Assembly: GCA_013138735.1 (NCBI GenBank)
Contig: WTCE01000094.1
Span: forward strand, 1 to 64,000
Length of the DNA: 64,000 nucleotides
Source: Crocinitomix sp.
GTDB lineage: Bacteria > Bacteroidota > Bacteroidia > Flavobacteriales_D > Crocinitomicaceae
Direction: 5' to 3'
The translations under genes were made by a program, and so were the position numbers. Below are positions 2,149 through 9,051 of the stretch, piece by piece; the stretch's first letter is position 1; every line of letters starts with the position of its first letter. The notes under the pieces are model-generated. The model worked only from the letters and a program-made list of their open reading frames with translations, had not been told where the DNA came from and searched no databases.

Positions 2149-5100
2149 TTAAAACAGCCCATCAAACAAACCACCATAATCATAAGAATCTAACGAGACA
2201 CGTTTACGGTGCTTTAGTTCAAATATTTCAAGCGTTCTTTTAATGGTTTCTTCCATTTCCTCATCATTCTTAATCGAGAGTCCTTTTTTGGTTTGATGAT
2301 CCTCAATACTCAAGTCTTTTTCATCTGTAGACATGAGGCCAACATAATCAATCATCCAGTTCTTTTTGTTTTCTTCTTTTCGTTTAAAGAAATAGATGGT
2401 GCCTTGTTCTTTGCCGTTATCAATTGTAACCGTTTTAACAAATGCTACAGTGTCTTCTTCTTCATCATAACCTGTATTATAGAGTAGGGCAAAGGCAATA
2501 TCTTGCTGCGTAATGGCAGGATCTAAATATTCTAAAAGTTCTTCATCATCTAAACGATTATAAACCCAAACACGGTATTTCTCATCTCGAGAAACTTCAT
2601 TGATTTTTGAAGTATCAACGTCTAATCCAAGTTTAGCATGAATGATCTCTGCTTCAACTTTAAATTTTTCATCTTCAATACGGTAAATATCTTCGAAATA
2701 GGCATCCGCATCTTTATCGCCACTTGCTTTAAAGCCACACATTAATGTATAGTAATCCAAAAACAAAGTGTGATAAGTTTCATATTGGTTAACACGACCA
2801 TAATTATAGCCATAACTATTATTATTCGAGCTCTCATTCTGGTTAGCTACTGTTCGCTTTAACTCAATTTTTGCATTTCTAAAAATCGCCGATTTTCTTG
2901 ACTTAAAATGATCAAAGGTGTAGATTTCTTGCAGATATCCGTCAGCCAAAAGTTCCATTACATGTGGGTGATAATCCGCATATTGCGCCATTTCGTACAT
3001 TTCTGGATAATAATCCTTTGACAGTTCTAATGAATCATATAAATAATCGAAAAATTTCAGTTTGCTTTCTTTTTCAGAAAAAGGAGGGTTGTCTAACAAC
3101 AATTTCTTTATCGCCGCATAGGCTTCTTCTGTTTCAGTGTAAGAGAAACATTTTAAAGCAACAAATTGTAAATCTGAATTGAAGTTATTGGAATCATACA
3201 CTTCATATAAAAATTCGTATGCCGGCTCAACTTCTAAATTGGCTAAAGTCAAAATTAAGTCTTCACGATATTCTTGTTCCGTTTCTTCCTCATATTCATA
3301 GGTATGATAAGCGTTAGCAATTCCCGCCACATCTTTTTCTTGAAAATCAACTGTATTAATCGATTTGATTGCGTTAATCTTATTCAAACTGTCTTCACCG
3401 TTCAGATGTTCAAAAAATAATTCGGCTTTGTCTTCAAATAAATCTCTACCTATTACGGTATCCTTTGGTTCAAAAGTATCGAAAAAGCGCTGTGCATATG
3501 GAGATGGGCCAGCGATTGTATCAATTAATGTTTGAAGCAGATATTGAACGCCATTATGCAATCTAAAATGTGTCATAATACCTTTTGCACTTCCTGTATC
3601 TGTTAAGGTATAGGATAAGGTGATATCTCCGTCAATTTCCTTTTCTATACGGTTAGATACTTTTAAGCCGTGTTCTTTTGTTAAAGATTTTGTTCTGTTT
3701 TCCCAAAAAGCTTCAACTGAATCAGCTCCGTAATAATCATGGAATTTTACATATCCCACATAAATGCCTTCACCTGTTTTAGGAAGTGTGTGATATTTTG
3801 ATCCTGAAGAGGATAAAAAACTGCGATCTTCTTCTTCTTCTTCCTGCCCATAACCATATCCACGGCCTGGCATTGATGGAAATTCTTTTTCTAGAATCGT
3901 TTCAACAGAGTAGTGGAGGCTGGTATCTTCATACACTTCATATTCGTCAGTTAAAATAAAATTATCAAATTCAAAAGAATCGAAAAAGGTAGTTGCGTTG
4001 GCATCCTTTGCAGTAGTGGTCATTAAATAATAGTAACCACCTTGCGTAATCAATTTCAATTTTAAGTCTTGCGTTTGGTTGGGATGATCCTCATCTGCCT
4101 TTAAATCTTGTAAAACGTAACTGAAACCAGACTCTGGATGAAAAGTAGTAGTTGCTATTTCATAACCCATTTCTTTTCCAAACGATTCACCCAAATAAGC
4201 CAAATCGAATGAATCCTCTTCAATAAAATCAAGATCGTTATACGTATAGCGCATAACTAAATAATAGTCATCCTTTTCGCTATCAAATGATTGATAAGTA
4301 GGTTCTATTTCGGTGTTTTCTAATCCGTCAATCATATCTTGACCGCTGACCATACCTTTCATCTTCCATTTTGCTCCACCATAAGTTGGTGTAACGTCAT
4401 TCCATTCGGAAGAATTTTTTCCCAACTGGATTTCGCTAAAAAAGCGCTTTGGATGACTTTTTTGGATGTATTCTCCAATCCCAAAACCTTTAAATACAAC
4501 AATTTCTGTAGGTGTGAAGAAGACATTATAGTTAACATAAGCGTTTTTACTTGTTAAGGTAAGCACGCGGTAGCCCATATGCCCGTTGACATTAATTTCT
4601 TCTTTTTTAATGAGTTCACCCGGCGTTGCGATATAAATTAAACTATCAAAAGTTGCTTTATAATACTCAGGGTCTTTACCAAAAATTCCGCCATAAGTGA
4701 ACATACGTACAATGCTAAAATATCCGCCGTTTATAGGTTCAGGACATAAATATTCCATTTTTCCGCGGCTGCTTGTTGGCATTTGATAAAGTGTTCCTGG
4801 CACAGATACTTGAATAAATCCATCTTCTGTAACATGTGGTTTAAAATCAATTGGGCGGTAGAGACTCTCCAATTTTTTTCTCGCTTTATGCGATTTTCCT
4901 GAAGATTTTGGATTCACTGCACGCACATTATATCCTAATTCTCTAAGCATTTCAATAGCACCTCCGTCACCTGGTAAATGCGCTGCACCAATTCCAATAA
5001 ATAAAGAGTTTTTAGAAATAATTGAGTCAATTCTGTCGACCATATTTCTATTTCGCTGTACGATAAAGTAATCGTGATAAACTGATGTAGGATTGTCGGC

Positions 5101-5766
5101 TTTACTTAAAGAATCGATTTGATTCAAATCACCACGGCGATAAGCTTCTTCTAAAAGCACGTATTTACGTTGACCGTCTGATTCTAAATAATTGTTACGA
5201 CTATTGTCTTCTTCTTTATCCTTGTCAGGCGTCATTGCCAAAATAGAGAGGTCGATCACTTCCTCTAGTGTCTCTAAACTATAAATTGGCTTATTGTTTT
5301 TTGCACCTGCTTGGAAAATAAACATATCTAGGAAAGTATTCTCTTGATAATCTTCATTCCCTGGATTAAAACGGTAAAGAATTTGATTCATTAAGCCATT
5401 CTTATTCTCCATTAATTTATAGGTGACGTCATTTTCAGGTTCGTCAATATCGAATGCCTTTTCATAAAAACCGTCGTACGAATAGTTTCCGCCAGAAAAA
5501 GCACCCATGTCTCTATAATCGTCCATCCAATGTGCTGGAGAAGATTCTAATGCAATTGCATCAGCCCGATTTAAGCATAAGTAAAAAGAGTCACTTACGT
5601 TAAACGCCAGTTTGTTTGAAACGTGCATTGTTCCGTATAAATAACTTGGTGTATTTAATCCGTTACCTGAAATTTCCCAAAGTAATCCTTGATAGGATTT
5701 TTGCTGGGAAATGCCAAAAAATGACGTGAAAATTAGCGTAATAATTAGAGAGGAGCGTAGTAGCAT
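2149..5766 (-). CDS. TraB/GumN family protein with very long C-terminal extension
   Basis: A 1205-residue secreted protein. A signal peptide (residues 1-20, ending near FFGISQQ) is followed by a TraB/GumN domain at about 28-285: the opening YLYGTMHVSNK with its conserved GT-H, and the closing block SLFIGIGAAHLPGDGGAIEM that ends the family fold. TraB/GumN proteins are thought to be metal-dependent peptidase- or chelatase-like (Tiki/PrgY relatives), but the bacterial role is unsettled. Ordinary GumN proteins are about 300 residues. Here about 900 more follow, with repeated beta-rich segments (300-750), an acidic Glu run near residue 645 and an alpha-helical, possibly HEAT-like stretch (780-1050). 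There is no T9SS sorting domain. The extension matches nothing I recognise. N-terminal family call good; whole-protein function unknown. Confidence 0.8.
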   Translation of the reverse strand: MLLRSSLIITLIFTSFFGISQQKSYQGLLWEISGNGLNTPSYLYGTMHVSNKLAFNVSDSFYLCLNRADAIALESSPAHWMDDYRDMGAFSGGNYSYDGFYEKAFDIDEPENDVTYKLMENKNGLMNQILYRFNPGNEDYQENTFLDMFIFQAGAKNNKPIYSLETLEEVIDLSILAMTPDKDKEEDNSRNNYLESDGQRKYVLLEEAYRRGDLNQIDSLSKADNPTSVYHDYFIVQRNRNMVDRIDSIISKNSLFIGIGAAHLPGDGGAIEMLRELGYNVRAVNPKSSGKSHKARKKLESLYRPIDFKPHVTEDGFIQVSVPGTLYQMPTSSRGKMEYLCPEPINGGYFSIVRMFTYGGIFGKDPEYYKATFDSLIYIATPGELIKKEEINVNGHMGYRVLTLTSKNAYVNYNVFFTPTEIVVFKGFGIGEYIQKSHPKRFFSEIQLGKNSSEWNDVTPTYGGAKWKMKGMVSGQDMIDGLENTEIEPTYQSFDSEKDDYYLVMRYTYNDLDFIEEDSFDLAYLGESFGKEMGYEIATTTFHPESGFSYVLQDLKADEDHPNQTQDLKLKLITQGGYYYLMTTTAKDANATTFFDSFEFDNFILTDEYEVYEDTSLHYSVETILEKEFPSMPGRGYGYGQEEEEEDRSFLSSSGSKYHTLPKTGEGIYVGYVKFHDYYGADSVEAFWENRTKSLTKEHGLKVSNRIEKEIDGDITLSYTLTDTGSAKGIMTHFRLHNGVQYLLQTLIDTIAGPSPYAQRFFDTFEPKDTVIGRDLFEDKAELFFEHLNGEDSLNKINAIKSINTVDFQEKDVAGIANAYHTYEYEEETEQEYREDLILTLANLEVEPAYEFLYEVYDSNNFNSDLQFVALKCFSYTETEEAYAAIKKLLLDNPPFSEKESKLKFFDYLYDSLELSKDYYPEMYEMAQYADYHPHVMELLADGYLQEIYTFDHFKSRKSAIFRNAKIELKRTVANQNESSNNNSYGYNYGRVNQYETYHTLFLDYYTLMCGFKASGDKDADAYFEDIYRIEDEKFKVEAEIIHAKLGLDVDTSKINEVSRDEKYRVWVYNRLDDEELLEYLDPAITQQDIAFALLYNTGYDEEEDTVAFVKTVTIDNGKEQGTIYFFKRKEENKKNWMIDYVGLMSTDEKDLSIEDHQTKKGLSIKNDEEMEETIKRTLEIFELKHRKRVSLDSYDYGGLFDGLF

Positions 5767-8054: not shown

Positions 8055-8083
8055 GAGTCTGGTCGGAAGACCGATTTTTACTC
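8055..8083 (+). terminator. Possible terminator after msrA
   Basis: Just after the msrA stop, GGTC-GGAA-GACC (8061-8072) forms a short GNRA-like hairpin followed by GATTTTT, and outer GAGT (8055-8058) can pair with ACTC (8080-8083). The stem is short, so this is a weak call. Confidence 0.3.
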
Positions 8084-8181
8084 TAATCTATTCAATTGTC
8101 GTAATTCCTATTGGCTAAATTTTGCGAATTAAAAAATTTTAACTTTTTTTGAGCTCTTTTTTACACAAAAAAATCTCAAAC

Positions 8182-9051
8182 ATGGTAAAATTATGTAAAT
8201 CAATTGCGGATGCTAAGTCATTTCAGAACTTTGTTACGTTTGCAATTATCGTGGCCGGTGTATTGGTCGGAATTGCTACTTATGCCGAGTTTTCCACAAA
8301 ACATGAGTCAATATTGGAGATCCTGAACTTGACTGTTCTTATTATCTTTATTATAGAGATTGTGGTGAAAATAGTTGCTGAGGGAAATAAGCCTTGGCGT
8401 TACTTTTTTGATGCCTGGAATGTTTTTGATTTTATAATTGTAGCAGCAGCATTTTTACCATTCGGCGGTAGTTCAGTTGCTATATTGAGATTGTTAAGGT
8501 TATTGCGTGTACTTAAGCTAATAAAGGCTTTACCAAAGCTGCAAATGTTAGTAGGCGCATTATTGAAGAGTATTCCTTCTATGGGATATGTATCCATTCT
8601 TTTATTGCTTTTATTTTATATCTATGCGGTGGCTGGAGTTTTCTTTTTTGGAGAGAATGATCCGACTCACTTTTCAGATTTACAAACTTCAATGTTGTCC
8701 TTATTCAGGGTAGTAACCTTGGAGGATTGGACAGATATCATGTATATTAATATGTATGGTTGTGCTAATTATGGTTATGATGGTTCAATGGAGATTTGCG
8801 TTAATTCTACTGCAAATGCTGCTGGTTCAGTTATCTTCTTCGTGTCATTCGTATTAATTGGAACAATGATTTTCTTGAATTTGTTTATTGGTGTAATCAT
8901 GAATGGGATGGATGAAGCAAAAGCAGATATGGCTTTAAGTGATAAAATTGCGAGTGGCGAAGCCAAAACAAACGTAGATGACTTAGAGAATAAACTCCAG
9001 GAAATGCAAGAGCTGCTGATCTTGTATAAAATGCAAAATAAGGACGCATAA
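8182..9051 (+). CDS. Single-domain voltage-gated cation channel (BacNav/Cav-like)
   Basis: A 289-residue six-helix channel subunit that should assemble as a tetramer in the inner membrane. S1-S3 occupy about 15-110. S4 follows with basic residues at every third position (LRLLRLLRVLKLIK), then S5, a pore loop and S6 (FFVSFVLIGTMIFLNLFIG). The C-terminus holds a likely coiled coil (DDLENKLQEMQELLILYKM), as in NaChBac relatives. The selectivity filter is TLEDWTD (residues 179-185, bases 8716-8736), not the TLESW of characterised sodium channels. Between filter and S6 there is a longer turret with two Cys (YGCANYGYDGSMEIC) that could form a disulfide. I chose ATG 8182; an upstream TTG at 8149 adds 11 unlikely residues. 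Channel identity is sure; ion preference is inference. Confidence 0.92.
   Translation: MVKLCKSIADAKSFQNFVTFAIIVAGVLVGIATYAEFSTKHESILEILNLTVLIIFIIEIVVKIVAEGNKPWRYFFDAWNVFDFIIVAAAFLPFGGSSVAILRLLRLLRVLKLIKALPKLQMLVGALLKSIPSMGYVSILLLLLFYIYAVAGVFFFGENDPTHFSDLQTSMLSLFRVVTLEDWTDIMYINMYGCANYGYDGSMEICVNSTANAAGSVIFFVSFVLIGTMIFLNLFIGVIMNGMDEAKADMALSDKIASGEAKTNVDDLENKLQEMQELLILYKMQNKDA

Follow-up and report, generated by a model that had tools for sequence, protein, structure and literature searches.

Two described channels stand closest to the one reported here, NavPp of Plesiocystis pacifica and CavMr of Meiothermus ruber, and the published tree places both in the ancestor-like group of bacterial sodium channels (BacNavs), called AnclNav (PMC7041947). 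The properties given below come from PMC7041947, PMC8002053, PMC10120453 and PMC10349818. The selectivity filter of NavPp is TLEDWTD (PMC7041947; repeated in PMC8002053). NavPp prefers Na+ (PCa/PNa 0.308 +/- 0.028, PK/PNa 0.16) and is blocked by external Ca2+, some of which permeates nonetheless; one of its S6 threonines is numbered 232 (PMC7041947). In addition, TLEDWTD equals the predicted ancestral BacNav filter, in which position 4 is Asp or Ser (PMC7041947). CavMr has the filter TLEGWVD and a PCa/PNa of 218, and its Ca2+ selectivity needs Gly4 and Val6 (PMC7041947). Furthermore, the loop after its filter bears a disulfide (PMC10120453).

Exchanges of filter residues have been described for both channels. 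According to PMC7041947, highly Ca2+-selective permeation in both CavMr and NavPp hinges on Gly, not Asp, at position 4, and NavPp-D4G reaches a PCa/PNa of 41.4. When TLEDWTD was put into CavMr, the product (CavMr-Pp) was weakly selective and Ca2+-preferring, with a PCa/PNa of 13.8. K+ was hardly told from Na+ by CavMr-Pp, CavMr-G4D and NavPp-T6V (PK/PNa 0.95, 1.20 and 0.99, respectively). The filters TLEDWSD and TLEDWAD make NavAb or NaChBac Ca2+-selective, whereas NavPp carrying them is not Ca2+-permeable and stays Ca2+-blocked. The same source records that no current was obtained from AnclNavs of Halomonas and Teredinibacter with NavPp-like filters. CavAb is an engineered NavAb with the filter TLDDWSD, and NavAb given the filter TLEDWSM is said to become about 100 times more permeable to Ca2+ relative to Na+ (PMC10120453). 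According to the same review, a channel with Asp at position 4 either selects calcium or conducts sodium and is blocked by calcium at millimolar levels. Divalent block is also described for NavAb mutants at another filter residue, with properties said to be unlike those of NavPp (PMC10349818).

The channel gene and its surroundings

The window is the whole stretch of 64,000 nucleotides that was analysed, from contig WTCE01000094.1 of Crocinitomix sp. (assembly GCA_013138735.1). The features in question are as follows.

8060..8076, + strand: terminator-like hairpin after msrA (consensus scan; weak)
8182..9051, + strand: channel gene, 289 aa when started at the ATG, or 300 aa from an alternative TTG at 8149; the stop codon ends at 9051
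8215..8532, + strand: voltage-sensor domain S1-S4, residues 12-117 (Pfam Ion_trans 12-248; model helices)
8473..8532, + strand: S4, residues 98-117 (sequence; model helix 98-111)
8572..8649, + strand: S5 helix, residues 131-156 (model)
8680..8757, + strand: P1 helix (167-178), filter and P2 helix (183-192) (model)
8716..8736, + strand: selectivity filter TLEDWTD, residues 179-185 from ATG (sequence; the same as the NavPp filter)
8761..8799, + strand: part of the post-filter loop from Cys194 to Cys206, probable disulfide (both-or-neither Cys pattern in 86 long-loop rows)
8818..8913, + strand: S6, residues 213-244; G227-T228 corresponds to the GT pair of locus L114, T228 standing opposite its T232 (model helix 213-257; alignment)
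8959..9042, + strand: C-terminal helix, residues 260-287, possible coiled coil (model helix 260-287)

The protein matches Pfam Ion_trans (PF00520) in one stretch, residues 12-248, with an E value of 1.4e-51. Both this match and the model helices give a single six-helix (6TM) domain with one voltage sensor and one pore. The ATG at 8182 is likely the start, because 11 of the 12 relatives inspected have an ATG at the same place (in L056 it is one codon earlier) and 8 of the 12 have an in-frame stop within 13 codons 5' of it. Furthermore, the gene is under purifying selection, since its differences from a 90%-identical relative fall 27/9/135 on the three codon positions.

S4 carries a positive charge at every third position (R103, R106, R109, K112 and K115), and the three arginines are invariant across an 18-row alignment. 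In the same alignment T179, W183, T184 and D185 of the filter are invariant, and L180, E181 and D182 are at least 90% conserved. The protein has cysteines at residues 5, 194 and 206, the latter two in the long loop after the filter. Thus far the initial annotation, which described a bacterial voltage-gated-type channel with the filter TLEDWTD and two cysteines in the outer loop, agrees with the sequence, and its numbering of the two aspartates was correct (D182 and D185 from ATG, D193 and D196 from TTG).

The AlphaFold2 model, a monomer built from 18 sequences, has the helices in the expected order at moderate confidence (mean pLDDT 75.3, pTM 0.45). Its best PDB matches in Foldseek were NavMs, a bacterial sodium channel, and then CavAb, NaChBac and NavAb, with TM-scores by query length of 0.45-0.58 among the best 50 matches listed. 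By analogy with BacNavs, the C-terminal helix is a possible coiled coil.

Transcription of the channel gene may start from a separate promoter, because a terminator-like hairpin follows msrA; the consensus scan behind this hairpin is weak, with 4 sites found against a mean of 2.3 (sd 1.5) in shuffled sequences. Among 67 loci, many with short flanks, no conserved neighbour partner was seen, since matches covering more than half of the neighbouring protein occurred in only a few of them (MsrA 3, DEAD-box helicase 5, M14 peptidase 2, MarR gene 1). A second channel of this kind was sought in the genome; besides the present one there are two PF00520 matches, and both bear the K+-channel signature TVGYG. 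Elsewhere in the window, a 1205-aa protein is encoded at 2149-5766 on the - strand; Pfam recognises a single domain in it, TraB/PrgY/GumN, at residues 28-282.

Relatives and phylogenetic position

The 67 loci were found by exact peptide patterns, including DIMYINMY just after the filter, and whole-protein searches without such patterns covered Bacteroidota and the class of the genome of L075; Gly4 variants showed up in these whole-protein searches. Altogether 135 homologues less five short ones (L007, L068, L094, L098 and L161) left 130, with the window and repeat copies included. These and NavAb gave 105 rows at 90% identity, of which 69 entered a maximum-likelihood tree. Exact TLEDWTD occurs in 70 of the 105 rows, window and NavAb counted, a number biased by the patterns, which favour TLEDWTD relatives. 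It is the commonest filter found; the filter is thus common rather than odd, and it is not new.

A match at E <= 1e-20 was present in 29 of 395 Bacteroidota genomes (own genome included), of which three carry TLESWSM and others have different filters again. Matches above 50% identity occurred in 7 of 59 genomes near that of the window, again including its own, with one gene split over two contigs. Because only 4 of 9 genomes of the genus carry the gene, some of these genomes being incomplete, its presence is patchy.

Several other Bacteroidota channels were seen in passing. In Aquimarina, two copies seem to be present in some genomes: L036 and L040 lie in the same record, and L035 and L065, which share an accession prefix, are 78% and 57% identical to the window protein. 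Two single-domain channels with odd filters (TFDDWSE and SFEGWS) have long frames of 816 and 770 aa (L146, G654:C6; L147, G571:C38). The C-terminal part of L147 matches Castor_Poll_mid (4.3e-26) and Slo-like_RCK (6.5e-11), a BacNav-like channel joined to RCK-type domains. In addition, the divergent channels L145, L149, L150, L151, L155 and L158 have the filters TGEDWPE, TGDGWGD, TGDDWGN, TGDGWSD, TGDGWSE or ALGEFND.

To find the NavPp gene, 317 genomes of the class of the L075 genome were searched. Matches at E <= 1e-20 occurred in 33 of them; four weak or secondary matches, which have no locus, were left out of the reading. The loci contained 19 TLEDWTD genes, and in two of these the S6 threonine can bear the number 232: in L114 when counted from the single start available in range, and in L112 when counted from one of three possible ATGs. 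L114 is therefore the probable NavPp gene. The window protein shares 59% identity with L114 and 57% with L112, so its likeness to NavPp does not depend on the choice between them.

The tree contains NavAb, with NavPp represented by the probable L114 and with CavMr and NaChBac absent; filter columns were kept in its alignment, and several outer rows are on long branches. The window protein falls in a nine-row Bacteroidota clade, all with TLEDWTD (support 100/98), inside a 45-row clade (98/94) that includes L114, most TLEDWTD channels and many TLEGW channels. Five more rows, four with TLEDWTD and one with TLEGWTD, are placed immediately outside this clade, and the resulting 50-row group has weaker support (93/79). 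NavAb is outside, in an eight-row clade (100/98) with seven rows bearing TLESWSM, TLENWAD, TLEGWAD and TLEGWAE. Filter position 4 changed between D and G at least four times within the 50 rows, and seven changes are counted when A and N are included. CavMr-like Gly4 filters are scattered among Asp4 relatives (L119, L124 and L127; L121, L126 and L139; L120; L143).

In this tree the window protein groups with the probable NavPp and apart from NavAb. This position, a TLESW-like filter with extra acids and a single 6TM domain with S4 charges place the channel in the AnclNav group. It shares with NavAb the Ion_trans fold and the pore helices. However, NavAb has the filter TLESWSM, a 14-residue loop without Cys, about 30% identity to the window protein and a separate clade; the TLESW filter, the short loop and the grouping with NavAb that mark canonical BacNavs are all lacking here.

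Against L114, only 1 of 21 positions differs from the end of the P1 helix to the first loop Cys, and the Cys pair and the S6 GT pair are common to both. Identical residues number 64/106 in the voltage sensor, 32/40 in the linker and S5, 23/29 in P1-filter-P2 and 23/27 in S6, but 7/24 in the loop and 10/45 in the tail. The loop of the window protein is one residue shorter, its tail is different, and its host belongs to another class and phylum. L121, a TLEGWVD channel of the same class as L114, is 52% identical overall, with 59/106, 30/40, 17/29 and 22/27 for the same four regions. Since the counts for voltage sensor, S5 and S6 are nearly equal, the closeness to L114 over L121 lies mostly in the P region, and the rest of the scaffold separates them poorly.

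Cysteine pair of the outer loop

Among the 86 rows with a loop of at least 27 residues, 72 have two Cys, 14 have none, and none has a single one. About 23 single-Cys rows would be expected under independence at the same frequency, kinship ignored. In the 19 short-loop rows, 16 have no Cys and three have one. Since the two loop cysteines come and go as a pair, the outer loop is probably braced by a disulfide between Cys194 and Cys206. The pair was gained or lost at least five times on the tree. It occurs with Asp4 in 32 of 39 rows and with Gly4 in 5 of 8 rows; being present with both alike, it is no marker of Ca2+ selectivity. Furthermore, a disulfide in the post-filter loop is already a known feature, noted for CavMr.

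Ion selectivity

We consider it fairly probable that the channel is a homotetrameric voltage-gated cation channel of the NavPp type, Na+-preferring and Ca2+-blocked with modest Ca2+ permeation, because its filter is identical to that of NavPp and its P region nearly identical to that of L114. Four subunits would form one pore, and depolarisation would move the five-charge S4 so that the S6 gate opens. The rings of E181, D182 and D185 in the filter would attract cations; Na+ would pass best and some Ca2+ would pass, while external Ca2+ at millimolar levels would hinder gating and permeation, as measured for NavPp. The host genus, represented by uncultured Crocinitomix MAGs, we take to be marine. 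The host is thus presumably a marine flavobacterium, and this Na+-rich setting favours the Na+-preferring reading.

Some results count against a NavPp-type channel. Outside the P region the scaffold resembles L121 almost as much as L114, the Halomonas and Teredinibacter channels with NavPp-like filters gave no current, and the model is monomeric and of moderate confidence. In addition, selectivity is not set by the filter alone, since TLEDWTD gives a Ca2+ preference in CavMr.

The initial annotation had proposed a natural calcium-permeable channel, in which three acid rings would concentrate Ca2+ as in CavAb. A Ca2+-selective or Ca2+-preferring channel is possible, and in our estimate rather unlikely; it is less likely than a NavPp-like, Na+-preferring and Ca2+-blocked one. 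D4 and D7 do coincide with CavAb, as had been noted, and acids stand at positions 3, 4 and 7 in both. The roughly 100-fold rise in NavAb with TLEDWSM, the behaviour of CavMr with TLEDWTD and the calcium-selective option that the review leaves for Asp4 channels all point the same way. However, CavAb is artificial, is built on the NavAb scaffold and has Asp3 where the window protein has Glu3. Moreover, in giving TLESW-S/A as the filter of characterised sodium channels the initial annotation was incomplete, for NavPp with the very filter of the window protein prefers Na+, and Ca2+-type filters give no Ca2+ permeation in NavPp, unlike the CavAb case. CavMr, compared here by its published description, shares the AnclNav group and the disulfide-bearing loop, but it has Gly4 and Val6 where the window protein has Asp182 and Thr6, and in both CavMr and NavPp it is Gly4 that accompanies high selectivity for Ca2+. 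The triple-acid filter is thus weakened as a sign of a calcium channel. Calcium permeability in the weak sense survives, given that NavPp passes some Ca2+ and CavMr with TLEDWTD prefers it. That the flavobacterial all-TLEDWTD clade has a scaffold behaving like CavMr and not like NavPp, which would make the channel naturally Ca2+-preferring, we judge unlikely.

A weakly selective channel, open to Na+, K+ and Ca2+ without distinction, would recall CavMr-Pp, CavMr-G4D and NavPp-T6V; it seems quite improbable, since the filter is that of NavPp, which does discriminate against K+, and the P region is nearly that of L114. Finally, the patchy presence even within the genus might suggest a decayed or regulatory protein that does not work as a voltage-gated channel, but this can hardly be so with an intact frame, kept S4 charges, the above codon-position differences and a filter kept across phyla.

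Most likely, the channel adds an ordinary member to an already known family and is not a new calcium channel; the find is modest. Many TLEDWTD channels are present in Flavobacteriales and other lineages, and the find also warns that the acid count of a filter is a poor guide to selectivity. If the scaffold did behave like that of CavMr, selectivity in the AnclNav group would be set outside the seven filter residues. Furthermore, close relatives with Asp4 and Gly4 filters are natural pairs, which could test what sets Na+ against Ca2+ selectivity.
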